From the NCBI RefSeq assembly GCF_963455295.1, contig NZ_OY734020.1, positions 1,488,001-1,552,000 on the forward strand: 64,000 bases of DNA, written 5' to 3'. The notes below the pieces were generated by a model, which worked only from the letters and a program-made list of their open reading frames with translations, did no database searches and had not been told where the DNA came from. This stretch comes from Candidatus Thiodiazotropha sp. CDECU1. GTDB taxonomy: Bacteria > Pseudomonadota > Gammaproteobacteria > Chromatiales > Chromatiaceae. The translations under genes and the position numbers were made by a program. Shown here piece after piece: positions 6,181 to 22,768 of this stretch (positions are counted from its first letter, which is position 1; each line of letters begins with the position of its first letter).

Positions 6181-7176
6181 TTACAATCCAAGCTCAGGCA
6201 AGGCCTCGATCAAATAGGGTTTTGCATGCAGATAGTGGGTGGTCTTGCGTTTGTTTTGAATATCCTGAAAGACAAAATTCGCCTGTTCCTGGGTAATTCC
6301 GAGCATCTCCGCCAATTCGTTTGCAGTGGCGCCGATGTTGAGTGCCCACAACGCCTTGTCCATCTCCTGATAGGGAAGCGCGAAATAGAACTCATCCTGT
6401 CCCTGGGGCAGACTGTAGGTATCGGTGGTAGGTATGGCATTACAGATCGAATCGGGCAAACCAAGGTGCTTCGCCAGGGCGTAGACCTGGGTTTTATAGA
6501 GATGGGCGATCGGTTTTAGGTCGGCGGATCCATCACCGTTTTTCACGAAAAAGCCCTGGTCGTACTCGAGTCGGTTCGGTGTGCCGATCACAGCATAGTT
6601 CAGCCGATCCGCATGATAATACTCGATAGTCTTTCGGATCCGTTGTTTGTAGTTGGTGGCGGCGACAATCTGCAGATACTCCTTGAGATCGAGGCGTTTT
6701 TCAAATTGCTGACCCTGAGGATCCTGTACCACCAGGGAGAAGTGATTGACCTGCCCATCCAGACCGCCTTTGATGACGATCTTGTTTTTCCAACCCTCGG
6801 CATACTCGGGAAAGGTTTTGACTATCGCCTCGTCCCGGGCCTGGTAGCAACCGATGGCCTCAAGGGTAGCGGCGATATTGTGGGTGGTATGATCGACACC
6901 CAGATGCTCGATCAGTTGGCTGCCGCGGGATTGGGTGTCTTGCGCAGAATCGACTTCCGGCAGTTGAATGAAAAAGGCCTTTTTCGGGCCAAAGGCCTTG
7001 ACTGCCAGGGCTGCCGACACAGAGCTGTCGATTCCGCCGGATACCGCGACAACAACACCGCGCCGACGCAGTTTGGTACGCATGATATCCCGCATGGATT
7101 CACAGATTTTTTCGACTTCTTTATCACGGTCGAAATTGAGGATTTCAGCTTCGTACCGTTCTGCTAATGCTTGCAT
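6181..7176 (-). CDS. nadE: NAD synthase, ammonia-dependent type (NadE-like)
   Basis: Converts deamido-NAD to NAD through an adenylate intermediate. VVVAVSGGIDSSVSAALAVKAFG (about 40-63) is the PP-loop ATP-binding motif. VIGTPNRLEYDQGFFVKNGDGSADLKPIAHLYKTQVYALAKHLG is the conserved deamido-NAD/metal-binding region. There is no N-terminal glutaminase domain. At 331 residues it is longer than E. coli NadE (275), mainly through an insert near 115-180. It is last in the minus-strand run guaD-asnB-ACP-acyl-AMP ligase-nadE. That placement raises the possibility that it serves the cluster by amidating a carboxylate or a nucleotide, rather than doing only housekeeping NAD synthesis. The choice cannot be made from sequence. 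Confidence 0.85.
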   Translation of the reverse strand: MQALAERYEAEILNFDRDKEVEKICESMRDIMRTKLRRRGVVVAVSGGIDSSVSAALAVKAFGPKKAFFIQLPEVDSAQDTQSRGSQLIEHLGVDHTTHNIAATLEAIGCYQARDEAIVKTFPEYAEGWKNKIVIKGGLDGQVNHFSLVVQDPQGQQFEKRLDLKEYLQIVAATNYKQRIRKTIEYYHADRLNYAVIGTPNRLEYDQGFFVKNGDGSADLKPIAHLYKTQVYALAKHLGLPDSICNAIPTTDTYSLPQGQDEFYFALPYQEMDKALWALNIGATANELAEMLGITQEQANFVFQDIQNKRKTTHYLHAKPYLIEALPELGL

Positions 7177-7262
7177 TCGTCTTCTCCGGATAGATTCTAC
7201 TCGGTTATTATATGTTCGGTCTGCGGCACGCCATATGGATGCGTCTGATCATTTTAATGATC

Positions 7263-8786
7263 TTATTTCAACAAAAACTTCTTTATCTTGCCTGAAGCCG
7301 TTTTTGGTAGTTCTTCTATGAACTCTATGGTTTTGGGGATTTTGTAAATAGCCAGATTGCTCTTACAGTGACGCTGAATCACTCTCTGATTCAGTTCGCT
7401 CCCCTGTTTCGGCACAACATAGGCCTTGATGATCTCACCAAGTAACTCGTCGGGACAACCGGTCACCGCCACCTCTTGTACCTCCTCAAGCTCCTGGATG
7501 ACCTCTTCGATCTCCTTAGGGCTGATGCGATTGGCGCCGCTCTTGATCATATCGGATGAACGTCCATCGATATAGAGATAGCCGTCGGCATCGGTATGTG
7601 CCAGGTCGCCGGTGTATAGCCAGCCATCCTTGAGGACCTCGTCGGTCTTCTGCGTGTCCTTCCAGTAGCCCTGCATGATGTTCTCGCCATGGGCGCAGAT
7701 TTCACCAGTCACGCCTGGTGCCATTACCTCGCCTGCTTTATTCCGCACCTCAATGGTGGTGTTTGGTATGGCTACGCCGATGGAGCCGCGTTTCTGCTCC
7801 AGCATATTCGGAGGCAGGTAGGTCAAGCGGGCGCTGGCCTCGGTCTGGCCATACATGATGAACAGCTCGGTATGGGGCAGGGCGTTGCTCAGTCTATCAG
7901 CCAGCACGGGCGCCATGGCGCCACCGGCCTGGGTGATATAGCGCAGACTCGAGAGGTCATAATCATCGATGTTGACCCTGCTCAGGAGTAACGCGAAGGT
8001 TGAAGGCACGCCGGAAAACCCGCTTACTTTCTCCTCTGCCATCTTCTCCATGACCCGATGGGGATAGAGCAGACTGTTCTCCAGTACTATCGAGGAGCCA
8101 ATTGCAAGGTGGGTATGCAGAATGGAGTTGCCGTAGGAGTAGTAGAAGGGGAGCACATTGAGAATGCTATCCGCGGCTGTCAGGTGAAGATAGGCCAGGA
8201 TGGATTCGATGTTGGCATTGAGATTGCCATGGCTGAGGGTTACGCCCTTGGGATTGCCGGTGGTACCCGAGGTATAGATGATCGAGGCAAGGTCGGAGTG
8301 GCTTAACACAATCTTCCGATCGGTGGGTTCCATGCCGATTATCTGTTGCCAATCCACACTGTTGTTGTCAGTCGCACCGGCATCCTCCCTGCTGACGTCA
8401 ACTTGCGTGAACTCCCCGCCAGCCTCCAATACAGCTTTTCTTTCCGGATGACGTTGGTCCATGAACAGCCACTTGGCATCGGAGTGGGTCATCCAGTTGA
8501 TGATATCCTTTGCCTTGGCCTGGGTATTGAGTGCAACGGTAACCCCGCCCGCAGACCAGATACCGTAAAAGATAGCGGCATATTCCGCCGAGTTGGCGAC
8601 GACCATGGCAACCCGGTCACCCTTCTGCAGCCCGGATGACAACAGGAAGTGTGAGACTTTAGCGGCAACATCAGATAACTCACGGTAAGAGACCCGATGG
8701 GTACTATCCGCTATGGCGACAGAGTCGGGATGCTTTGCAACACTCTCTCTGAAACGATTGACCAGGGTAGCCGGCATGGGGGTCAC
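7263..8786 (-). CDS. Acyl-AMP ligase / acyl-CoA synthetase family protein
   Basis: ANL-superfamily adenylating enzyme of about 507 residues. Motifs: IIYTSGTTGNPKGVTLSHGN (A3/P-loop), IMYGQTEASARL (A5), GWLYTGDLAHTDADGYLYIDGR (A7/A8) and the catalytic lysine in LPKTASGKIKK at the C-end. The reading frame runs back to 8885 across the ACP gene, but homology starts at PATLVNRFRES, so the start is GTG 8786 (one base after the ACP stop) or ATG 8777. The coupling with the ACP implies that this enzyme activates a carboxylic acid and loads it on the ACP 4'-phosphopantetheine. Similar ligase/ACP pairs occur in polysaccharide and exosortase loci, but no exosortase is present here. The acid is unknown. 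Confidence 0.85.
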   Translation of the reverse strand: MTPMPATLVNRFRESVAKHPDSVAIADSTHRVSYRELSDVAAKVSHFLLSSGLQKGDRVAMVVANSAEYAAIFYGIWSAGGVTVALNTQAKAKDIINWMTHSDAKWLFMDQRHPERKAVLEAGGEFTQVDVSREDAGATDNNSVDWQQIIGMEPTDRKIVLSHSDLASIIYTSGTTGNPKGVTLSHGNLNANIESILAYLHLTAADSILNVLPFYYSYGNSILHTHLAIGSSIVLENSLLYPHRVMEKMAEEKVSGFSGVPSTFALLLSRVNIDDYDLSSLRYITQAGGAMAPVLADRLSNALPHTELFIMYGQTEASARLTYLPPNMLEQKRGSIGVAIPNTTIEVRNKAGEVMAPGVTGEICAHGENIMQGYWKDTQKTDEVLKDGWLYTGDLAHTDADGYLYIDGRSSDMIKSGANRISPKEIEEVIQELEEVQEVAVTGCPDELLGEIIKAYVVPKQGSELNQRVIQRHCKSNLAIYKIPKTIEFIEELPKTASGKIKKFLLK

Positions 8787-8787
8787 A

Positions 8788-9033
8788 CTATTGCTTTTTT
8801 CTTCCAATAAAAGAGACAATGTTGTTAACGGAATCGAGGTTTTCGGGCACCATTTCGGTGTCTTCAACCTTAATACCGAATTCATCTTCCAGAAAATAGA
8901 TGACCTCCAGGATACCGGTTGAATCCAATATGCCCTTGTCCAGGAAGGAGTCTGCGCTGTCCAGTGCGGATTGATCCTCCGTGAACAGATAATTCTCTAG
9001 GATGTAGTTTCTGATTGTTGCTTCTGTTGACAT
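8788..9033 (-). CDS. Acyl carrier protein
   Basis: 81-residue phosphopantetheine-attachment protein. The carrier serine is in DSFLDKGILDSTGILEVI, where DST replaces the DSL of fatty-acid ACPs, as is common in ACPs of polysaccharide and amidotransferase clusters. The ATG at 9033 (MSTEATIRNYILENY) is chosen over an upstream start at 9084, because it begins at the first helix of the fold. It stops one base before the ligase start, so translation is probably coupled. A 214-bp gap separates it from asnB upstream; a promoter could lie there. Confidence 0.85.
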   Translation of the reverse strand: MSTEATIRNYILENYLFTEDQSALDSADSFLDKGILDSTGILEVIYFLEDEFGIKVEDTEMVPENLDSVNNIVSFIGRKKQ

Positions 9034-9247
9034 GAAATTTTCCAAAGGTTCTGACAGTTTGATACTGAGATTAATGCTCGCCATTCAGTATGTCGACTGA
9101 TCGATGGACATGTTTAGTCCAATGAGCACTATTCTAAAGTGGCAAGTTTAAATGAAATAGGTAATTTTTCACTCATATTTCTGATCGGAATCGGCCAAGT
9201 TGCTCCGGTGGTGAATAATAGATGCCGATACAAACAGTCTATTGTGC

Positions 9248-11179
9248 TTAGATTGCCGCTTGCTCAATGAACAGCTCATCCACCAGCATGCTGGATAAAA
9301 TGCCTACGAAGGCCATATTGTCGGCGAATCCCAGGGCCTTGCCCCGGGCGCATTTTTTCAACAGCAGATTGACGGTTTTCGGGTTGTAGTAACCCGCTTT
9401 GCGAATCCGCTCCTCACTCAACAGATAGGCGACATATTCCAGGGGGGTCTCCCCATTGAAGAAGGATTGGCTGTCCGGTGCGCGATAGGGTTGTTTGCTT
9501 CGCTTTCTGATGCTTTCCGGGATCAGACCCTGCATGGTCTGCTTGAGCATATACTTTTCATTCAATCCCATGATCTTATAGCGGCTGGGCAGGGTTGCCG
9601 CGAACTCTATCACCCGATGATCGAGGAAGGGATAGCGCCCTTCGATGGAGTTGGCCATTGCCACCCGGTCTCCCTGAGAGCTGAGGAGATAACCTGACAA
9701 GAGTGTATTGGCCTCGATGTACTGATCCCGATTGAGGGGCTTCCAGGCATCGATCTCCGCCGGCAGGATGCGGTTTATCGTATCAAATCCTATCGGTTGC
9801 TTGACCGCCGCTCGCGCCTCATCGGAAAAGAACTGCATGATCCGCTGGGTCGTGGCCCAGCGTGGGATATGGGCAAAATAGGGCTTGTCGAGGTGCTCCA
9901 TACCCTGTTGAAAGAAGCGTTTTGAAAAGGCACCGCTGGTTGTGGGTGAATGTTTCAGATAGGGGTAGAGGCGCTGCAGTATCAGTGGTCGCCAGGTGGA
10001 ATCCGGGGCATGGCTCCAGAAGCGTCTCACCTTGGCCTCTTTAAAGATATCGTAGCCGCCAAATACCTCGTCCGCCCCTTCACCAGTCAATACCACCTTA
10101 TAACCCGCCTCTCGAACCGCACCGGATAACAGCATCAGTGGGGTTGGCGCGGTTCTGACGATGGCGGACTCGGTATGGGAGATGACCCGCGGAAACGCAG
10201 CGCCGATGTCGGATCGCTTACACAGCACATGGGTATGGTTGGTGCCCAGGTAGTCGACCAGGTCCTTCTGAAAACCGCTCTCATCGAACTCTTCATCCTC
10301 GAAGCCGATGGAGAAAGTCCTGAGCGGGGTGTCGGTAAAGTTCTTGATCAGAGAGGTCAGTACCGAGGAATCCAGGCCGCCGCTGAGATAGGCACCCACC
10401 GGCACATCGGATCTGAGTTGTAAGCGCACCGAGTCGATCATCAATGTCTTTAGCTCTTCACTCCAGTCCGCCACGGATTTGTCGTGGTCGATATGCTCGT
10501 TGGGATATGACCAATCCCAATATCTGGAGAGGTGTTTACTGCCGTTTTCGATCACCATAAGATGCCCGGGTGGGACCACCTCCACCGACTCGAAAAGTGA
10601 GTGTGGTGGCAGGGTTGTCCAGAAGGTAAAGACCTCCTGCAGGGCGGTCAGATTGATCTGCCGGGAAATGGCTGGGTGGGCGAACAGGGACTTCACTTCT
10701 GAAGCAAAGTAGAGCCTGCCTCCGGTTTCGATGGTGAACAGCGGACGAATACCTGTTCTGTCCCTGGCGAGGATCAGTTTCTGCTTGGTACTGTCCCACA
10801 GGGCGATGGCGAACTGGCCATTCAGATGGTCGACGAATCTCTCGGCATACTCTTCATAGAGGTGGACGATGACTTCGGTATCGGAATGGGTGTAGAAGCG
10901 ATGTCCCTGTTTCTTCAGTTGCTCGGTCAGTTCCACATAGTTGAATATTTCGCCATTGAAGACCACCTGTACAGACTGGTCCTCATTATGGATAGGCTGA
11001 TCACCCCCAGCCAGGTCGATGATGCTCAGCCGGGCGTGGGCCAACCCCACTTTGTCGTGACAGTAATACCCATAGCCGTCGGGGCCGCGGTGATGAACGG
11101 CGTGTATCATACCCTCCAGTTCGCTTCTGGAAGGAGCAACGCCGTCCCTAAGATTTAAGATGCCTGCTATACCGCACAT
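9248..11179 (-). CDS. asnB: Asparagine synthase-like glutamine amidotransferase
   Basis: 643-residue two-domain amidotransferase. The N-terminal Ntn-type glutaminase begins MCGIAGILNLRDG with Cys2 as nucleophile, and has HHRGPDGYGYY and VVFNGEIFNYVEL. The C-terminal synthetase has the PP-loop VGAYLSGGLDSSVLTSL (about 255-271) and LTGEGADEVFGGYDIF. It transfers ammonia from glutamine to an ATP-activated carboxylate. The neighbours (guanine deaminase, ACP, acyl-AMP ligase, NAD synthase, ABC exporter) suggest a specialised amidation rather than asparagine supply, like amidotransferases of surface-polymer or natural-product loci. The symbol is the family name, not proof of asparagine synthesis. 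Confidence 0.88.
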   Translation of the reverse strand: MCGIAGILNLRDGVAPSRSELEGMIHAVHHRGPDGYGYYCHDKVGLAHARLSIIDLAGGDQPIHNEDQSVQVVFNGEIFNYVELTEQLKKQGHRFYTHSDTEVIVHLYEEYAERFVDHLNGQFAIALWDSTKQKLILARDRTGIRPLFTIETGGRLYFASEVKSLFAHPAISRQINLTALQEVFTFWTTLPPHSLFESVEVVPPGHLMVIENGSKHLSRYWDWSYPNEHIDHDKSVADWSEELKTLMIDSVRLQLRSDVPVGAYLSGGLDSSVLTSLIKNFTDTPLRTFSIGFEDEEFDESGFQKDLVDYLGTNHTHVLCKRSDIGAAFPRVISHTESAIVRTAPTPLMLLSGAVREAGYKVVLTGEGADEVFGGYDIFKEAKVRRFWSHAPDSTWRPLILQRLYPYLKHSPTTSGAFSKRFFQQGMEHLDKPYFAHIPRWATTQRIMQFFSDEARAAVKQPIGFDTINRILPAEIDAWKPLNRDQYIEANTLLSGYLLSSQGDRVAMANSIEGRYPFLDHRVIEFAATLPSRYKIMGLNEKYMLKQTMQGLIPESIRKRSKQPYRAPDSQSFFNGETPLEYVAYLLSEERIRKAGYYNPKTVNLLLKKCARGKALGFADNMAFVGILSSMLVDELFIEQAAI

Positions 11180-11221
11180 TGTCTTGTTTGCTTTGTTTGT
11201 GTTGTTTTAAAGCATGATCGT

Positions 11222-11698
11222 TCAATAGTCGACCCGCTTGTCGCTCTCATGCCAAGCTCTGAACAGGGTGAGACTCCGCTCTCTGAAAAGTTGTTGGGTG
11301 ATGATGCCTCTTTCACCCATCGGTTTGTTGAGTTCCTTGTGGATAAAATTGTCGTTAAAGCCGATGGCAGCGGCGTCATCGGCCGTGGCAGCATAGACCA
11401 GACGATCTATGTGAGCCCAATAGGCGGCGCTGAGGCACATCGGGCAGGGTTCGCACGTGGTATAGAGTACACTGCCTGGTAGATGATAGCTTGCTGCATG
11501 GTCGCAGGCATTGCGAATCGCCAATATCTCCGCATGAGCGGTAGGATCGTTGTGCTTTATCACCTGGTTCCAACCGCGACCGATAATCCGTTCCTGCATC
11601 ACAAGCACTGCACCGAATGGACCGCCATCACCCTGTTCTATACCCCGTTGTGCGAGCTGCAGGGCCTCGTTCATGAAGGTCTCATCCTGTTGATCCAT
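11222..11698 (-). CDS. guaD: Guanine deaminase (cytidine-deaminase fold, GuaD type)
   Basis: 158 residues, matching Bacillus subtilis GuaD over its whole length: GGPFGAVLV, NDPTAHAEILAIRNAC (zinc His and catalytic Glu of HAE), YTTCEPCPMCLSAAYWA (zinc Cys of PCxxC), DAAAIGFNDNFIHKELNKP and the C-terminal FRAWHESDKRVDY, which in GuaD closes over the domain-swapped partner's active site. It should convert guanine to xanthine. It follows the ABC permease by 7 bp and precedes asnB by 42 bp. Its place inside a biosynthetic-looking run, rather than with purine salvage genes, is unusual and may point to a purine-derived product. Confidence 0.85.
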   Translation of the reverse strand: MDQQDETFMNEALQLAQRGIEQGDGGPFGAVLVMQERIIGRGWNQVIKHNDPTAHAEILAIRNACDHAASYHLPGSVLYTTCEPCPMCLSAAYWAHIDRLVYAATADDAAAIGFNDNFIHKELNKPMGERGIITQQLFRERSLTLFRAWHESDKRVDY

Positions 11699-11705
11699 GC
11701 TGTGT

Positions 11706-12704
11706 CTACTCCCAGCGAAAGGTTTTCGAACCTATGATGACAAAGCACAGGGTAAACAGGAAGAGTATGAGCAGCTGGGATGCCACGTCCATCAAACCGG
11801 CACCCTCGATCATCACCACCCGGGCGGCGTCGATCATGTGGGTCAAGGGCAGGGCCAGTGACAGATTCTGCACAAAAGGATGTGAACCCTCGAGGGAGAA
11901 CCAGACCCCGGATAGCAGCATCATGGGCCAGCTCATCAGATTCAGCAGACCGTTTGCCGCCTCTTCGCTGGTGATGCGTGCCGCCACCAGCAGACCGACG
12001 CTGATCATACTCAGGGCGCCCATAATGAGGATCAGAAAGAGTAACCAGTAGGAGCCCACCATGCGGAAATCCACCACCAAATCGGTCCCCACATAGACCA
12101 AAACAGTGACTGCCACGATCATTAGCAGACGTGATGCGATCTGCGCCGATATAAACTCGAAAGCGCTGAGCGGGGTTGCCCGTAGCCTTTTCAATACGCC
12201 ATTTTTACGATATCTAACAATGACATAGCCGACTCCAAACAGGGCGCTGAACATGATGTTCATACCCAGGACGCCGGGTATTACCCAATCCACATAGCGT
12301 ATCTCCGATCCACTCAGCGCCTGGCGCTGCAGTTTGTAGGGTAATAACAACTGTTCAAGCAGGTACCCTTTGGGTGAGGTACTGTTGACCCAATAGCGGT
12401 TGTTCTGCACGTCCAGCAATAGATCGATCTGGTGTCTGTCCACCTTGTCGATCATCTTGTTCAGCTCCACCACCGGAATGAAGTCCACATATCGGATTGT
12501 CAGGAAATCCTCCAGGGCGCGATTCTCTTCAGCTTCCCCATAAATACCAACCTTGTAGAGCTCCTCCTGTCCGGTGGTGAATGCAAAGGCGAAACCCATC
12601 ACGATCAATACCGGCATGATGAGATTCCAGCCGAGTGCGGTACGGTCACGCAGAAACTCCAGGTTGCGTGCTTGCAGGGCGGCTAAGAAACGACGTAAAG
12701 ACAT
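11706..12704 (-). CDS. ABC-2 type transporter permease
   Basis: 332-residue membrane subunit. Residues ~25-45 form the first transmembrane helix (IMPVLIVMGFAFAF). A large extracytoplasmic segment (about 46-135) follows, then five hydrophobic helices from VIPGVLGMNIMFSALFGVGYVIV to LLILFLFTLCFVIIGS, the ABC2_membrane_3 layout of DrrB/YhhJ-like exporters. It starts 13 bp after the ATPase gene. Such pairs export drugs, lipids, polysaccharides or self-made natural products. Given the downstream genes, export of the cluster's own product is the simplest guess. Confidence 0.88.
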   Translation of the reverse strand: MSLRRFLAALQARNLEFLRDRTALGWNLIMPVLIVMGFAFAFTTGQEELYKVGIYGEAEENRALEDFLTIRYVDFIPVVELNKMIDKVDRHQIDLLLDVQNNRYWVNSTSPKGYLLEQLLLPYKLQRQALSGSEIRYVDWVIPGVLGMNIMFSALFGVGYVIVRYRKNGVLKRLRATPLSAFEFISAQIASRLLMIVAVTVLVYVGTDLVVDFRMVGSYWLLFLILIMGALSMISVGLLVAARITSEEAANGLLNLMSWPMMLLSGVWFSLEGSHPFVQNLSLALPLTHMIDAARVVMIEGAGLMDVASQLLILFLFTLCFVIIGSKTFRWE

Positions 12705-12717
12705 AGTCAGAGTGGCC

Positions 12718-13596
12718 CTAAGTGCGCAGGTGATGCCCGGTCAGTTCCAGGAACAGGTCTTCCAGGGTTGGGGATCGTACCTGCAGCTCGTGTAAAGAGA
12801 CCTGCTGGGCTGTCAGATGGCGCATGGTGCTATCCACATCCTTGGACAGGATCTCCATGTGGCCCTCCTGGGGGTGCAGCGTAGAGGCCTCGTCGGCTTG
12901 AAAATCCCTGGGCAGGGCAGAGAGGGGCAGGGTGATCACGGATTTATCGAAATGGTTGGCCAGCAGTGTTTTAGGATTGCCTTGGGCGATGATTACACCA
13001 TGATCCATGATGATGATCTCGTCACACAGCTCAAATGCCTCTTCCATATAGTGGGTAGTCAGCACCAGGGTTTTGTTTTCGGCCTTGATACGGCGTACCT
13101 GATGCCAGAGGTTGCGTCGTGACTGAGGATCGAGACCGGTGGTGGGTTCGTCGAGAAACACTATCTCCGGGTCGTTGATCAGCGCGATGGCCAACAGCAG
13201 ACGCTGTTTCTGACCGCCGGAGAGTTTGCGTGTATCCCGCGTCAGGAACTCCTCCAGGGCGCAGATCTCCACCAACTCTTCAATCGGCCGGATGTTGGTG
13301 TAGAACTGCTGAAACATCTTCAGCACCTCGTCCACACGGATATACTCCTGCAGCGCGGTGTGCTGAAACATGATTCCCGCTTCGTCGCGAAAGCGTTTCC
13401 CCAGTGGTTCACCCTTATAGCGTATCTGGCCCGACGAGGGTGTCTTGATACCCTCCAGCATCTCCACGGTGGTGGTCTTGCCCGCACCGTTTGGGCCCAG
13501 CAGACCGAAGCAGACGCCACGCGGGATGGAAAAGCTGACCCCGTCCACCGCTTTGATACCCGCGTAGTGCTTGCTGAGGTTATCCGCCTCAATCAT
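12718..13596 (-). CDS. ABC transporter ATP-binding protein
   Basis: 292-residue nucleotide-binding subunit of the adjacent ABC-2 permease. Walker A is GPNGAGKTTTVEML (about 34-47), the Q-loop is MFQHTALQEYIRV, the signature is KLSGGQKQRLLLAIAL, and Walker B is EIVFLDEPTTGLDPQSRRN, followed by the H-loop TTHYMEEAFELCD. The C-terminal ~80 residues are the small accessory domain of DrrA/CcmA-like ATPases. It lies 24 bp after the HDOD gene and 13 bp before the permease. Confidence 0.92.
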   Translation of the reverse strand: MIEADNLSKHYAGIKAVDGVSFSIPRGVCFGLLGPNGAGKTTTVEMLEGIKTPSSGQIRYKGEPLGKRFRDEAGIMFQHTALQEYIRVDEVLKMFQQFYTNIRPIEELVEICALEEFLTRDTRKLSGGQKQRLLLAIALINDPEIVFLDEPTTGLDPQSRRNLWHQVRRIKAENKTLVLTTHYMEEAFELCDEIIIMDHGVIIAQGNPKTLLANHFDKSVITLPLSALPRDFQADEASTLHPQEGHMEILSKDVDSTMRHLTAQQVSLHELQVRSPTLEDLFLELTGHHLRT

Positions 13597-13620: not shown

Positions 13621-14493
13621 TCACGATATGAACATGACCTCGATATTCTGAATATCGTCAGCGACACCTTCGATTTCGATGATATTGACCTCGGGTTCCA
13701 ATCCAACTTTTATGAAGGCCGGGATCTGCGCCAGGGTCGATGGGTCGATGGAGTCGCCCCCATTCATCTGCGACTCGAGTCGTGCCACCAGCACGATATC
13801 CACATAATCGATATCCCCCTCGCTGGTATAGTCAAGGTTACGAAAGTTTGCCGGTACCCGGATCAGGGATTCGGAGAAGCCCCAGATCTCGAGTATGCGT
13901 TGACCGATCTGGGGGCTCAGGGCATCGATCACCCTATCCAGTTCCTGGGCATCCTCAAGCAGTTCGTCATGACTCTCCGCAAGGGTGAGAATCGGCAGGG
14001 CGCCGATATTGTGGATCAGGCCTGCCAGCATCGCCTGCTCCTTATCCAGATGGTCAGTATTGGCGGCAAGCACACGGCTGAGCGCAGCGATCTGTACACT
14101 CTCTTCCCACACCTGTCTGAATTTGGCATCCAGCAGGTCGCTGGTTGCCTGGAAGATCTGCTGCATGATCAGACTGACGACCAGGCTGCGCACCAGACGC
14201 ACCCCCAGTCTGGCCACCGCCATCTGCAGATTGTCGATGGTCACCCGGCCCCGATAGAGGGGACTATTGGCGACCTGCAGAAGCCGTGCCGACAAGGCGG
14301 CATCCGAGGCGATGATATCGGCAATCTGGTTGGCCGAACTCTGCTCTCTCTCCACCGCATCCCTGACCTTCAGCGCCACTTCCGGGAGTGTGGGGAGGGT
14401 GATGCGGTTGTGGTCGATGGCGTCGTTTAGCTTTTCAAGAAATTCGTTTTCGTCGATCATTTTTTGCTTGGGTTTCCACTTTATCGTTGTCAT
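13621..14493 (-). CDS. HDOD domain signalling protein
   Basis: 290-residue HDOD protein, a catalytically inactive relative of HD phosphohydrolases used in signalling. LPTLPEVALKVRDAV and ANSPLYRGRVTIDNLQMAVARLGVRLVRSLVVSLIMQQIF are typical. A second helical half carries AGLIHNIGALPIL, an HN instead of the HD pair, which supports lack of hydrolase activity. Start choice is uncertain: ATG 14493, or ATG 14460 (MIDENEF), where the similarity begins. It stands between ygfZ and the ABC ATPase in the same direction and could regulate that operon, but nothing in the sequence proves it. Confidence 0.85.
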   Translation of the reverse strand: MTTIKWKPKQKMIDENEFLEKLNDAIDHNRITLPTLPEVALKVRDAVEREQSSANQIADIIASDAALSARLLQVANSPLYRGRVTIDNLQMAVARLGVRLVRSLVVSLIMQQIFQATSDLLDAKFRQVWEESVQIAALSRVLAANTDHLDKEQAMLAGLIHNIGALPILTLAESHDELLEDAQELDRVIDALSPQIGQRILEIWGFSESLIRVPANFRNLDYTSEGDIDYVDIVLVARLESQMNGGDSIDPSTLAQIPAFIKVGLEPEVNIIEIEGVADDIQNIEVMFIS

Positions 14494-14544: not shown

Positions 14545-15543
14545 TTACTCTTCAGAATAGCTGTAGGGGAGGTTGAGTATCTCCAGCCTGGGGCCGCTCT
14601 CACCCAACTTGACCTGGTTCTCCTCGGCACTGGCGATTTCGATAATGGCGAGCAGTTCGTAACCATCGCCACTTGATTGTGCATCCACGATTTTACCCGC
14701 ACCCTGTCCCGATGTGCTTCCCTCCGCAAACAGGTCATCACCCGGTTGTGGCGCTGTATCGCTATCCACATGGGCCAGATACATACGCCGCTTCAGCTTG
14801 CCCAGGTATTGCATGCGTGCCACCACCTCCTGGCCGGTGTAGCATCCCTTGGTGAAACTGACCCCGTCGATAAGCTGCATATTTGCCATCTGCGGTACGA
14901 AAGACTCGCGGGTTTGAGGATAGAGGGTCGGGATACCCGCGCGAATCTCATACAGTGACCAGAGCTCACTACTTGCCGGTTGGGCCTGTCCTTCAGCGGT
15001 CTGCCAGATCTCCTTCAACTGTGGAACCGGCCCTATGACTTCGAAGCGGGGCATGCTGCCAGGCAGACGTATCAGGATCAGCCCGTCCTGCTGTTGCACG
15101 CTATTGGCTTGCTCGGGCAGCTCTTCGAAAAAGGGCTGCAGCAGGGCTTCGGCGCAATTCCCGGTCAGGCCGATCCTGACCCAATCATCGCTGGCATTGC
15201 TGACAACCACCTTGGAACGCAGTACATACATGGATAGCCGGGGCAGAATCGCGGGGATGGCCTCGGCCGGAGTCTGCAGGTAGTAGCTTTCGCCTTGGCG
15301 AAAGCAGCGAAAGCTGGCTATCATGCGGCCCTTGGCGTTACACCAGCCCGCCAGGTTGCTGTGATCCTCGGTGACCTGACGCATGTCGTTGGTCATCTGG
15401 CCTTGTAAAAACTGCTCTGCGTCTTCCCCCTCGACCCGGATCAGGCCATAGTGGGAGAGATCATTCAGGGCGCAGTTGATGTCGGCACCGTCAGTGACCG
15501 GCTTGCTGCGGGAGGCGAGGAATTCAGACCATTCTCTATTCAT
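14545..15543 (-). CDS. ygfZ: Folate-binding iron-sulfur cluster assembly protein YgfZ
   Basis: Tetrahydrofolate-dependent protein that helps build or repair iron-sulfur clusters in some enzymes. The signature KGCYTGQEVVARMQYLGKLKRR (near residues 232-253) is the YgfZ/GcvT-like hallmark containing the essential Cys. LSHYGLIRVEGEDAEQFLQGQMTND is the N-terminal folate-fold start. The frame is open up to 15663, but ATG 15543 (MNREWSEFL) fits the family length (332 residues) and has AGGAG upstream. It is divergent from the RNase II-like gene with about 110 bp between starts. Confidence 0.9.
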   Translation of the reverse strand: MNREWSEFLASRSKPVTDGADINCALNDLSHYGLIRVEGEDAEQFLQGQMTNDMRQVTEDHSNLAGWCNAKGRMIASFRCFRQGESYYLQTPAEAIPAILPRLSMYVLRSKVVVSNASDDWVRIGLTGNCAEALLQPFFEELPEQANSVQQQDGLILIRLPGSMPRFEVIGPVPQLKEIWQTAEGQAQPASSELWSLYEIRAGIPTLYPQTRESFVPQMANMQLIDGVSFTKGCYTGQEVVARMQYLGKLKRRMYLAHVDSDTAPQPGDDLFAEGSTSGQGAGKIVDAQSSGDGYELLAIIEIASAEENQVKLGESGPRLEILNLPYSYSEE

Positions 15544-15653
15544 GTCAGGGACTGGCTCCTGGGTTTGACATTCAACAGTGCGTATCATACCCGATCCCGC
15601 AGGTGACGAAACTCCCTGTGTAATTCCGGAAATGAGCTTTTTTGGTAGGTTAC

Positions 15654-17465
15654 ATGAGTACATTCACGACAGGCGCCCTGGTTCTCTACAAGATTCGACC
15701 GGCTCGGATCATCGAGGTGACGGACAAGATCACCATCGAACTGGAAACAGGCAAGAACAAACGGGTCAGGGACAAGGATGTGGTCCTGTTGCATCCCGGG
15801 CCCCTGAGCGATCTCAAGGAACTGACCCCGCAAAGCGGTGAGATCGAGGAGAACTGGGAGTTACTGGAAGGCGCCGAGACCGATATCAAGGAGTTGAGCG
15901 AACTGGTGTTCGGTGACTATACCCCCGCCATGGCCTGGGCTGCCTGGGAGTTGGTGTCGGAGGGTATCTATTTCGAGGGCGAACCCTCATCGATCCGCCC
16001 GCGTTCCGCGGACCAGGTGGCGTCAGAGATTGCCGAGCGGGCAAAAAAGGCTGCCGAGGCAGAGGCCTGGGATGGCTTTATACAGCGTTTACAATCGGGT
16101 TCGATTATCGAGGAGGATCGCAAGACCCTGGGCGAGGTCGAGGCGCTGGCCCTGGAGAAGCGGGAGAACAGCCGTATCCTGCAGGCCCTGGAGATCCAGG
16201 AGACCCCGGTCAATGCCCACCGTCTGTTGCTCAAGACCGGTTACTGGCCAGCCAACGAAAATCCCTATCCGCGCCGCATGGGTATAGACGAGTCCATACC
16301 GGGATGTGCGGTACCAGCATTGGTGGAGGAGGAGCGTCTTGATCTGACTCATCTTCCAGCCTACGCCATCGATGATGAAGACAACCAGGATCCGGATGAC
16401 GCGGTGAGTCTGGATGGGGAGCGTATCTGGGTCCACGTGGCGGATGTGGCCGCCCTGGTTGCCCCGGACAGCGAGATGGATCTGGATGCCCGCGCCCGCG
16501 GTGCCAACCTCTATCTGCCGGACCGGGTGATCCCGATGCTGCCGCCCCAGGTGACAGACCAGCTCGGCCTCGGCCTGCAGCAGAAGTCGCCGGCATTGTC
16601 GATCGGTTTCAATCTCTCTGCTGCGGGGGATGTGGAAAATGTGGCGATCCACCCGAGTTGGGTCAAGGTCGAGCGCATCAGTTACGCTGCTGCGGATCTG
16701 CGTCTGCAGGAGGACCCTCTCTCTTCCCTGTTGGGGAAGAGCCAGTGTTACCGGCAACGGCGCATGCAGGCTGGCGCGGCATCGATACAGCTGCCGGAAG
16801 TGAAGTTAAAGGTCAGCGAAGGCCGGGTGGAGATCGAGCCGCTGCCCAGGCTACAGAGCCGGGAGATGATCACCGATCTGATGCTGATGGCCGGGGAGGG
16901 CATAGCCATCTACTGCCAGAACCAGGATATACCCATTCCCTTTGCAACCCAGGCACCACCGGATCAACTTGAGCAGCCGCAAGACCTGGCAGGCATGTAT
17001 GCCTATCGCCGTTTCTTCAAGCCGACCAAGATAAAGACCCAGCCGGAACCCCATGCGGGATTGGGTCTGAGCGTCTATACCCGTTCCACCAGCCCCTTGC
17101 GGCGCTACTCCGATCTGCTGGTCCATCAACAATTACGCGCCCATCTCAAGGGTGACGAGGTGCTCGATATCCATCTGATCTCCGAACGTATCGCCCAGTC
17201 CGAGATGGGCAGTATGGCGAACCGCAAGACCGAACGGGTGTCAAATGACCACTGGCGTCTGATCTACCTGCGCGACAATCCCGATTGGCAGGGCGAAGCG
17301 GTAATCGTTGCCAAGGAGGGAGAACGGGCAACGGTGCTGCTGCCGTCGATTGCCATGGAAGCCAAGTTGCGCATCCGTGGCGATGCAGGGTTGAACGACA
17401 GTATCAGACTCAAACCCCGGGAGATCGACATCCCCGATCTGAGTTGCTATTTCCGGGTCATCTGA
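15654..17465 (+). CDS. RNB domain exoribonuclease (RNase II/R family)
   Basis: 603-residue 3'-5' exoribonuclease. The RNB catalytic domain holds the metal-binding aspartates in YAIDDEDNQDPDDAVSLDG (around residue 240), followed by IWVHVADVAALV, ANLYLPDRVIPMLP and, near the C-end, YTRSTSPLRRYSDLLVHQQL. The N-terminal ~60 residues look like a small beta-barrel (TTGALVLYKIRPARIIEVTDKITIEL), as in RNB proteins of cyanobacterial/chloroplast type rather than enteric RNase II. The ATG at 15654 starts this domain directly. A short C-terminal S1-like segment follows. The precise RNA targets are unknown. Confidence 0.85.
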   Translation: MSTFTTGALVLYKIRPARIIEVTDKITIELETGKNKRVRDKDVVLLHPGPLSDLKELTPQSGEIEENWELLEGAETDIKELSELVFGDYTPAMAWAAWELVSEGIYFEGEPSSIRPRSADQVASEIAERAKKAAEAEAWDGFIQRLQSGSIIEEDRKTLGEVEALALEKRENSRILQALEIQETPVNAHRLLLKTGYWPANENPYPRRMGIDESIPGCAVPALVEEERLDLTHLPAYAIDDEDNQDPDDAVSLDGERIWVHVADVAALVAPDSEMDLDARARGANLYLPDRVIPMLPPQVTDQLGLGLQQKSPALSIGFNLSAAGDVENVAIHPSWVKVERISYAAADLRLQEDPLSSLLGKSQCYRQRRMQAGAASIQLPEVKLKVSEGRVEIEPLPRLQSREMITDLMLMAGEGIAIYCQNQDIPIPFATQAPPDQLEQPQDLAGMYAYRRFFKPTKIKTQPEPHAGLGLSVYTRSTSPLRRYSDLLVHQQLRAHLKGDEVLDIHLISERIAQSEMGSMANRKTERVSNDHWRLIYLRDNPDWQGEAVIVAKEGERATVLLPSIAMEAKLRIRGDAGLNDSIRLKPREIDIPDLSCYFRVI

Positions 17466-21423: not shown

Positions 21424-21753
21424 ATGTTTTGTCCGGAGTGTGGAACTGAAAATCCAGAAGGTGCGAGGTTCTGCGGAAACTGCAGGCATCAGCTCTCAGG
21501 TCAAACCGGCCCTACAGAGAATAGTCCTGGTGGTTCTGTGGTTGAAATCGGCAGTGAGCCTAAGGCTGTTTCAGATGGGTTGAAGTATGGAATACTGGCC
21601 GGTTCACTGATCATACCCTTTATTGGCATGATCATGGGTATTATCTACCTGGTGCAGGGGGAATCGGAAGAGAAAAAGGATGTTGGTAAATTGTGGCTGT
21701 ATGGAAGCATAGGGATTATTGTCTTGTATATGATTATCAGTGGTGATATTTGA
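21424..21753 (+). CDS. Zinc-ribbon membrane protein
   Basis: 109 residues. The N-terminal zinc ribbon MFCPECGTENPEGARFCGNC has four Cys in CxxC...CxxC spacing. After a short linker come two predicted transmembrane helices: YGILAGSLIIPFIGMIMGIIYLV (about 54-76) and LWLYGSIGIIVLYMIISG at the C-end. AGGAGAG precedes the ATG. It ends 22 bp before the TIR gene, whose product carries a similar zinc ribbon at its C-end; the two probably form an operon and may interact. Function unknown. Confidence 0.75.
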   Translation: MFCPECGTENPEGARFCGNCRHQLSGQTGPTENSPGGSVVEIGSEPKAVSDGLKYGILAGSLIIPFIGMIMGIIYLVQGESEEKKDVGKLWLYGSIGIIVLYMIISGDI

Positions 21754-21775
21754 GCCAACCGCTAAGGGCCTTAGG

Positions 21776-22768
21776 ATGAATAAACCAGCTGCCTACATTT
21801 CATTAAAAAGAAATAAAACCAGCTCATATCAAATACGCCAATTTGCAATCACAATCGATGACACTGTGGTGGGTAAGATCAGGTCGGGGGAGACAAAGCA
21901 GTTCAAAGTTCCCAGTGGTGCCCACGCCATCGGTGTGAAGATTGACCTCTATAAGAGCCAACCGCTGCAGATTGAGCTGAAACCTGAACAAACCCTCGAT
22001 CTTGAGTGCGGTGATCGATCGCCCGAGAGCATAAAAGAGGCATTTACCTTAAAGGGTATAGAAAAATCACTAAACTCCCTGATCAAGCCCAAGCAATATC
22101 TTTACGTGCAACCTGTGGGTCACTCCGCGTCACAACTGACGCCGCACAAACCGAAACCAAGGGTAAAGCCTCCTCAAGAGGCACAAACCGTTAGAAAATC
22201 CTGCACAGTATTTATCTCCTATCGACGTGATGACAGCCGTGAGATCACAGGCAGGATATGTGACAGGCTGAACAGCGAATTTGGCAAGCAGGCCATTTTC
22301 AGGGATGTTGACTCCATACCTGCCGGAGTGGATTTTCGCAAACACATCAACAAGACCATCGATCAGTGCTCTATGCTGGTGGCGATAATAGGTGATAAAT
22401 GGTTGGATGCGAAAAACAGGAAGGGTGAACGACGGCTGGATCTCCCCAATGACCATCTAAGGGTGGAGATAGAGACCGCCTTGAAAAAAGAGGTCCCGGT
22501 GATACCGGTGCTGGTGAAGAATGGTGTCATGCCTGATGAAGAGGAGCTGCCTGAAGGGCTAAAGCCCCTGGCATACCGAAATGCAATCCCGATACCGGAA
22601 GAGCCATTCTTTCATAACGGTGTCGATCTCCTGATAAAGGAGATGTCGAAGGGCTTTTCACCAAGCAAGCCGGCCAGGCAGTCGAACAGAAATGCATTCT
22701 GTATCTACTGTGGCAATGAGATCATGCCCGGTAACAAGTTCTGTATTCAGTGCGGTAAACCGGTTTAA
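21776..22768 (+). CDS. TIR domain protein with N-terminal beta domain and C-terminal zinc ribbon
   Basis: 330 residues. Residues ~1-80 form a beta-sandwich-like domain (FAITIDDTVVGKIRSGETKQFKVPSGAHAIGVKID) of the kind found fused to bacterial signalling proteins. Residues ~140-275 are a TIR domain: CTVFISYRRDDSREITGRICDRL, IFRDVDSIPAGVDF, MLVAIIGDKWLD and HLRVEIETALKKEVPVIPVLV, where the Glu in RVEIETAL is at the usual NADase position. The last 23 residues are a zinc ribbon (FCIYCGNEIMPGNKFCIQC). The start at ATG 21776 is preferred to the upstream frame extension. Bacterial TIR proteins often hydrolyse or cyclise NAD in phage defence; that role is inferred. Its stop overlaps the 13-mer repeat at 22766-22778. 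Confidence 0.82.
   Translation: MNKPAAYISLKRNKTSSYQIRQFAITIDDTVVGKIRSGETKQFKVPSGAHAIGVKIDLYKSQPLQIELKPEQTLDLECGDRSPESIKEAFTLKGIEKSLNSLIKPKQYLYVQPVGHSASQLTPHKPKPRVKPPQEAQTVRKSCTVFISYRRDDSREITGRICDRLNSEFGKQAIFRDVDSIPAGVDFRKHINKTIDQCSMLVAIIGDKWLDAKNRKGERRLDLPNDHLRVEIETALKKEVPVIPVLVKNGVMPDEEELPEGLKPLAYRNAIPIPEEPFFHNGVDLLIKEMSKGFSPSKPARQSNRNAFCIYCGNEIMPGNKFCIQCGKPV

Follow-up and report, generated by a model that had tools for sequence, protein, structure and literature searches.

We analysed a 64,000-nucleotide window (the whole stretch of DNA under study; positions 1,488,001 to 1,552,000 of contig NZ_OY734020.1) of Candidatus Thiodiazotropha sp. CDECU1, a clam symbiont whose genome is a single contig of 4.46 Mb and whose nearest named relatives are Candidatus Thiodiazotropha and lucinid symbionts (e.g., of Ctena orbiculata). 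On the minus strand at 6181-11179, four genes make up one functional unit: i) asnB (9248-11179), encoding an AsnB-type amidotransferase that depends on glutamine and whose acceptor region is altered (PF13537/PF00733); ii) the gene of an acyl carrier protein (ACP) with a DST phosphopantetheine site (8788-9033, in an open reading frame (ORF) reaching 9084); iii) the gene of an ANL acyl ligase, the probable loader of the ACP (7263-8777, in an ORF reaching 8885; PF00501/PF13193); and iv) nadE2 (6181-7176; 331 aa; NF002048), encoding an NH3-dependent amidotransferase that resembles NAD synthetase and carries a three-strand insert. The ligase start at ~8777 is probable because the longer ORF to 8885 overlaps the ACP, and the probable ACP start MSTEAT at ~9033 gives the 214-bp gap between asnB and the ACP that was reported in an earlier note on this DNA. 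That note had joined the four genes with three more from upstream (a guanine deaminase gene and two ABC exporter genes) into one pathway. All seven minus-strand ORFs were recovered at the same positions and, by profile matches, in the same families; the seven are nevertheless not one pathway.

Conservation of the four-gene unit

The module is common: a scan in which each species was represented by one genome yielded at least 563 NadE2 relatives, of which the best 80 were kept, a selection that biases the statistics towards close kin of the window. In the 55 distant GTDB loci that had 7 kb or more of upstream flank, the ACP was present in all 55, the ligase in 54, AsnB in 50 and the complete set of four in 49, with the ligase adjoining the ACP and with the gene order the same or slightly permuted. 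In the control, asnB, acp and ligase genes were found in none of 14 neighbourhoods of canonical NadE. The arrangement is kept over Gamma-, Beta- and Alphaproteobacteria, and runs of asnB, ACP, ligase and nadE were also found on rhizobial plasmids (Sinorhizobium medicae, Mesorhizobium, Shinella and Rhizobium); S. meliloti 1021 carries NadE2 on pSymB. The four-gene run is isolated in Mesorhizobium (on a plasmid) and in Rhizobium ACO-34A, adjoins polysaccharide genes in Shinella and, in Azospirillum, appears as ACP, ligase, asnB, nadE and a GNAT gene following glycosyltransferases and a polysaccharide deacetylase. Closer to the window, NadE2 was found in 17 of 20 other congeners, in 0/14 other sampled genera of the family and in 1/21 sampled genomes from other families of the class; across the class, 17 of 369 sampled members passed the NF002048 cut-off.

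Several single loci depart from this pattern. At L073 acp and nadE stand together and the other genes of the unit were undetected. At L043 (G171) NadE2 survives as a truncated remnant interrupted by an internal stop, and the rest of the module is absent from the locus. At L110 (G012; 11326-13244) asnB lies in two frames and the contig ends shortly past the ligase; the missing nadE there may reflect an assembly gap. On the plasmids of two rhizobia the module is adjoined by minCDE (L077, 17408-19328; L235, 3098-4941). The NF002048 subfamily also has a match in the archaeal control genome, Methanosarcina acetivorans, and a phage search using NadE2 returned no match.

Enzymes of the unit

NadE2 belongs to NF002048 (PRK00876, an NAD(+) synthase subfamily), with a score of 477 bits against a cut-off of 313. 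The earlier note's proposal would have been refuted if this gene supplied the only NAD synthase of the genome. It does not: a canonical glutamine-dependent NAD synthetase (556-aa frame) is encoded at genome position 658621, and NadE2 is an extra gene and not the sole, housekeeping enzyme. Moreover, a separate full-length canonical NadE accompanies NadE2 in 19/20 NadE2 genomes checked (the second match in G106 being partial), and the congener G018, which is without NadE2, has the canonical NadE alone. The structure model of NadE2 (mean pLDDT 90) has its best fold matches among NH3-dependent NAD synthetases (Z 27). The fold is known to take other carboxylates, because it is shared by the nicotinamide mononucleotide (NMN) synthetase of Francisella (3fiu), which ranked second in Foldseek. 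In a motif-based comparison NadE2 retained the PP-loop and the GFFxKxGDGxxD, PTTD and KR blocks, and with these active-site blocks conserved it might putatively use deamido-NAD. Thus in fold, PP-loop and blocks NadE2 resembles NadE of E. coli and B. subtilis and the Francisella enzyme, while it differs from them in being a second genomic copy in an asnB-acp-ligase neighbourhood and in carrying the insert, whose three strands lie at residues 130-136, 145-151 and 157-162 of the model. C110, Y111, R114, D115, W129 and K132 are invariant in this extra region.

AsnB has an intact glutaminase Cys2 and SGGLDSS motif and scores above the cut-off of TIGR01536 asparagine synthase (513.7 bits vs 267.1), while it falls below those of the XrtA amidotransferase TIGR03108 (448.7 vs 816.9) and of TIGR03104 from the N-acetylglutaminylglutamine amide (NAGGN) pathway (369.4 vs 570.1). 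The acceptor-site segments of E. coli AsnB are not kept: across 59 aligned module AsnBs, RQKEQFSDGVG is replaced by RxKQPYRAPD and two residues are deleted before APTP, segments which bind aspartate in the E. coli enzyme. The best solved match is a hydroxyamidotransferase (7ylz). Another AsnB-type amidotransferase, OxyD, amidates malonyl-ACP. The module AsnB shares with such tailoring enzymes its intact glutaminase and synthetase domains and a partner ACP; it is unlike them in its KQPYRAPD segment, in having NadE2 alongside and in being encoded without polyketide or trichostatin genes.

Two types of module ligase can be told apart by sequence, MYGQTEAxARL and MYGLTECKR, and in every aligned member listed an Arg directly follows the TE motif. 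This Arg presumably maps to positions 330/331 of the nonribosomal peptide synthetase code and would face the acyl pocket; if so, it could perhaps favour a substrate bearing an additional acidic group. The window's ligase scored 375.1 bits against the XrtA-associated acyl ligase family TIGR03098, below the cut-off of 592.35. In the ACP, the DStG motif is conserved in 70 aligned module ACPs, and its best family matches, the ornithine-lipid ACP NF052616 (57.3 bits, cut-off 130) and the cispentacin ACP NF058660 (44.1 bits, cut-off 80), both fell short of membership, as did DltC (28 bits, cut-off 68). DltA and DltC are a ligase-carrier pair that serves cell-surface polymers. The module is like such pairs in combining a stand-alone ANL ligase with a carrier protein and in its link to cell-surface polymers, but it has amidation enzymes, its ACP lies below the DltC cut-off and no DltB-type transferase was seen.

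Genomic setting and neighbouring genes

In many Gammaproteobacteria the unit lies inside XrtA/PEP-CTERM exopolysaccharide loci, and in several lineages its neighbours exceed the NCBIfam cut-offs of TIGR03007, TIGR03006, TIGR03019, TIGR03027 and TIGR03016. An XrtA chain-length gene was present in 14/17 NadE2 genomes and in 102/352 others (Fisher p 1.4e-5), and the co-occurrence persisted when the window's genus was left out (p 9.6e-5). The loci that so often surround the module (TIGR03007, TIGR03006, TIGR03019, TIGR03108, TIGR03098) have, in NCBIfam, an AsnB-type amidotransferase family and an acyl ligase family of their own; the module AsnB and ligase are outside these families, NadE2 does not belong to the families of these loci, and the module also occurs without such loci. 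The conserved exopolysaccharide cluster of floc-forming Zoogloea and Aquincola, which includes two asparagine synthetase genes (PMC9012009), is in line with a part for AsnB-type enzymes in exopolysaccharide synthesis.

Within the window itself, no XrtA or exopolysaccharide gene was found among the scanned genes neighbouring the unit. The statement of the earlier note that glycan and exosortase genes are missing is true of the interval that it described, but does not extend to relatives, which often embed the unit in XrtA exopolysaccharide loci. The XrtA-type genes of the window's genome lie at 2.94-3.43 Mb, 1.4-1.9 Mb from the unit, and an XrtA deacetylase is present in 14/22 members of the genus. 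Thus the link between the unit and XrtA across the class is strong but not obligatory.

Further genes recur beside the unit. A GNAT-type protein of ~350-370 residues adjoins it in 24/72 distant loci, and GNAT-related proteins are linked to it in 5/5 annotated rhizobial loci examined (over ~10 kb in S. medicae); against the gammaproteobacterial profile the rhizobial matches are weak, the Azospirillum protein being more similar. Of the 72 distant loci, 16 have a methyltransferase of the HemK/PrmC family that carries an NPPY motif. HemK/PrmC enzymes N-methylate the side-chain amide of glutamine, and because this partner family acts on an amide nitrogen, a carboxamide is indicated in the product of the unit. 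A KAS III homologue accompanies the unit in 7/72 distant loci, counting matches of >500 bits only since six-frame ORFs gave many spurious short ones. A methylmalonyl-CoA-epimerase-like protein and a molybdenum hydroxylase are rarer partners.

Upstream of asnB in the window, all on the minus strand, lie guaD (11222-11698), whose guanine deaminase product is closest, among solved structures, to the guanine deaminase 1wkq (E 2.7e-44), the gene of an ABC-2 permease (11706-12704) and that of its partner ABC ATPase (12718-13596). The same-strand run goes on into an HDOD protein gene (13621-14493; 24 bp beyond the ATPase gene) and ygfZ (14545-15663; 51 bp beyond the HDOD gene), and therefore the boundary drawn around seven genes is arbitrary. 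In most congeners guaD and the ABC pair sit upstream of the unit, and the HDOD-YgfZ-ABC block is kept across the genus whether the module is present or not: guaD, permease, ATPase, HDOD and YgfZ are intact in G018 (locus L111), a congener without the unit. The permease was found in 19/20 congeners and also in other genera of the family without NadE2, where permease and ATPase stand in unrelated surroundings without guaD. In six congeners (G002, G005, G008, G009, G013, G014) guaD and asnB are separated by the genes of a molybdenum hydroxylase of the xanthine-dehydrogenase family and of its 2Fe-2S subunit, so that the adjacency of guaD and asnB in the window is probably secondary; this pair is also found with the unit in the unrelated lineages L136, L147 and L177. 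Its arrival with the unit and later loss would be the simplest reading, under which the 42-bp gap between guaD and asnB in the window would be the product of a deletion. Subunits of this family (molybdenum and 2Fe-2S) are likewise carried beside the module at loci L057, L127, L128 and L131. A promoter and terminator consensus scan revealed no site clearly exceeding chance.

A possible route to amidated acyl groups on polysaccharides

The unit is a widespread module of four enzymes, as yet uncharacterised, into which an NAD-synthetase paralogue has been recruited, and what the earlier note had noticed is real but mis-bounded. With moderate confidence we propose that the unit makes an amide-bearing acid on the ACP, the product being mostly attached to secreted polysaccharide. 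The conservation of the unit, the families of its enzymes, the additional canonical NadE, the XrtA link and the recurring partners are observed, and the substrate, order of steps, chemistry and product are what we infer. The ligase would activate an acid with ATP and load it onto the phosphopantetheine arm of the ACP. AsnB (with glutamine) and NadE2 (with ammonia) would then adenylate one or more carboxylates of the acid or of an acceptor, leading to one or more carboxamides. Loading of an acid on the ACP followed by amidation, as the earlier note had envisaged, would still be the simplest chemistry for the unit. Where present, the HemK/PrmC-type enzyme may N-methylate the amide, and in many lineages the GNAT-type transferase may pass the acyl group to an exopolysaccharide, probably to an amino sugar or else to another group. 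In Thiodiazotropha the unit, lying apart from the exopolysaccharide locus and beside an unrelated exporter and guaD, would act in trans. The more specific proposal, in which a NAD-synthetase paralogue was recruited with AsnB, ACP and ligase into a proteobacterial module that places carboxamide acyl groups (N-methyl-carboxamide in some lineages) on exopolysaccharides, is tentative.

Several observations weigh against attachment to polysaccharide or against a single unit. Four congeners (G001, G005, G013 and G014) have the unit without the XrtA deacetylase, and one Mesorhizobium locus is without glycan genes inside 15 kb, so that decoration of polysaccharide is not universal; only 19/55 distant loci have any of five scanned exopolysaccharide markers within reach. 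A search of the window's genome for the GNAT12 partner found no close homologue, and lineages L067 and L069 are without an adjacent ligase. Furthermore, the pairwise distances of the four unit proteins do correlate (Mantel r 0.47-0.69, reached by 0/999 permutations), but such a correlation cannot tell co-inheritance from shared species history, which contributes.

Among the alternatives, the unit could make a free soluble amide (a signal, an osmolyte or another secondary metabolite), its position in polysaccharide loci reflecting co-regulation only. The unit standing alone on the Mesorhizobium plasmid and in Rhizobium ACO-34A, its presence in congeners without the XrtA deacetylase, and the amidation of small acids by AsnB-type enzymes, with 7ylz as the best solved match, all favour such a product; the strong co-occurrence with the XrtA chain-length gene, the repeated embedding in polysaccharide loci and the recurring GNAT-type neighbours make it somewhat unlikely. 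A second alternative keeps the glycan but divides the labour: NadE2 would amidate a nucleotide-activated uronic acid, and AsnB, ligase and ACP would supply that glycan with an acyl group made separately. Such a uronic acid, with its carboxylate beside a pyrophosphate-nucleotide, is an analogue of deamido-NAD, which suits the retention in NadE2 of the blocks that surround the active site of NAD synthetases, and the high Foldseek rank of 3fiu; still, no consistent sugar-acid gene turned up beside the unit, where no search was aimed at such genes, and the joint retention of acp and nadE at L073 is a better fit with an ACP-bound substrate, leaving this division unlikely.

That NadE2 is a spare NAD synthetase hitch-hiking with the AsnB/ligase/ACP set would agree with its conserved catalytic blocks and NAD-synthetase fold, yet we regard it as very unlikely given that the neighbourhood is conserved over three proteobacterial classes, that the canonical copy is retained and that the distinct insert has invariant CY, RD and W residues. 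As for all seven genes forming one pathway that makes and exports an amidated acid coupled to a moiety derived from a purine or from nicotinamide, the short gaps on one strand in the window's genome speak for it, as does the fact that most congeners likewise have the deaminase and exporter genes upstream of the unit. On the other hand, guaD and the permease were each found in 0/55 distant module loci, G018 keeps the guaD-ABC-HDOD-YgfZ run whole although it has no unit, other genera have the ABC pair in unrelated surroundings, and molybdenum-hydroxylase genes separate guaD from asnB in several congeners. So broad a pathway is very improbable. Of the single pathway proposed earlier, the part formed by ligase, ACP, AsnB and NadE stands as one unit (49/55 distant loci and the rhizobial plasmids), while the guanine deaminase and the supposedly dedicated exporter fall away; a role for these in the unit's chemistry was dropped on the neighbourhood evidence. 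Because guaD and the exporter are not parts of the unit, the purine- or nicotinamide-derived moiety loses its basis.

If attachment of the amidated acid to polysaccharide holds true, the module would represent a new route of polysaccharide decoration and would explain the second NAD synthetase in many XrtA loci. Searches of the open-access literature for the gene combination and its setting found no description, an absence that is no proof of novelty. In the plasmid records examined, the module nadE is labelled NAD(+) synthase, which would mislead metabolic models. Cultured hosts of the module exist and allow tests. Elsewhere in the window, a TIR-domain protein with a C-terminal zinc ribbon is encoded on the plus strand at 21740-22768.

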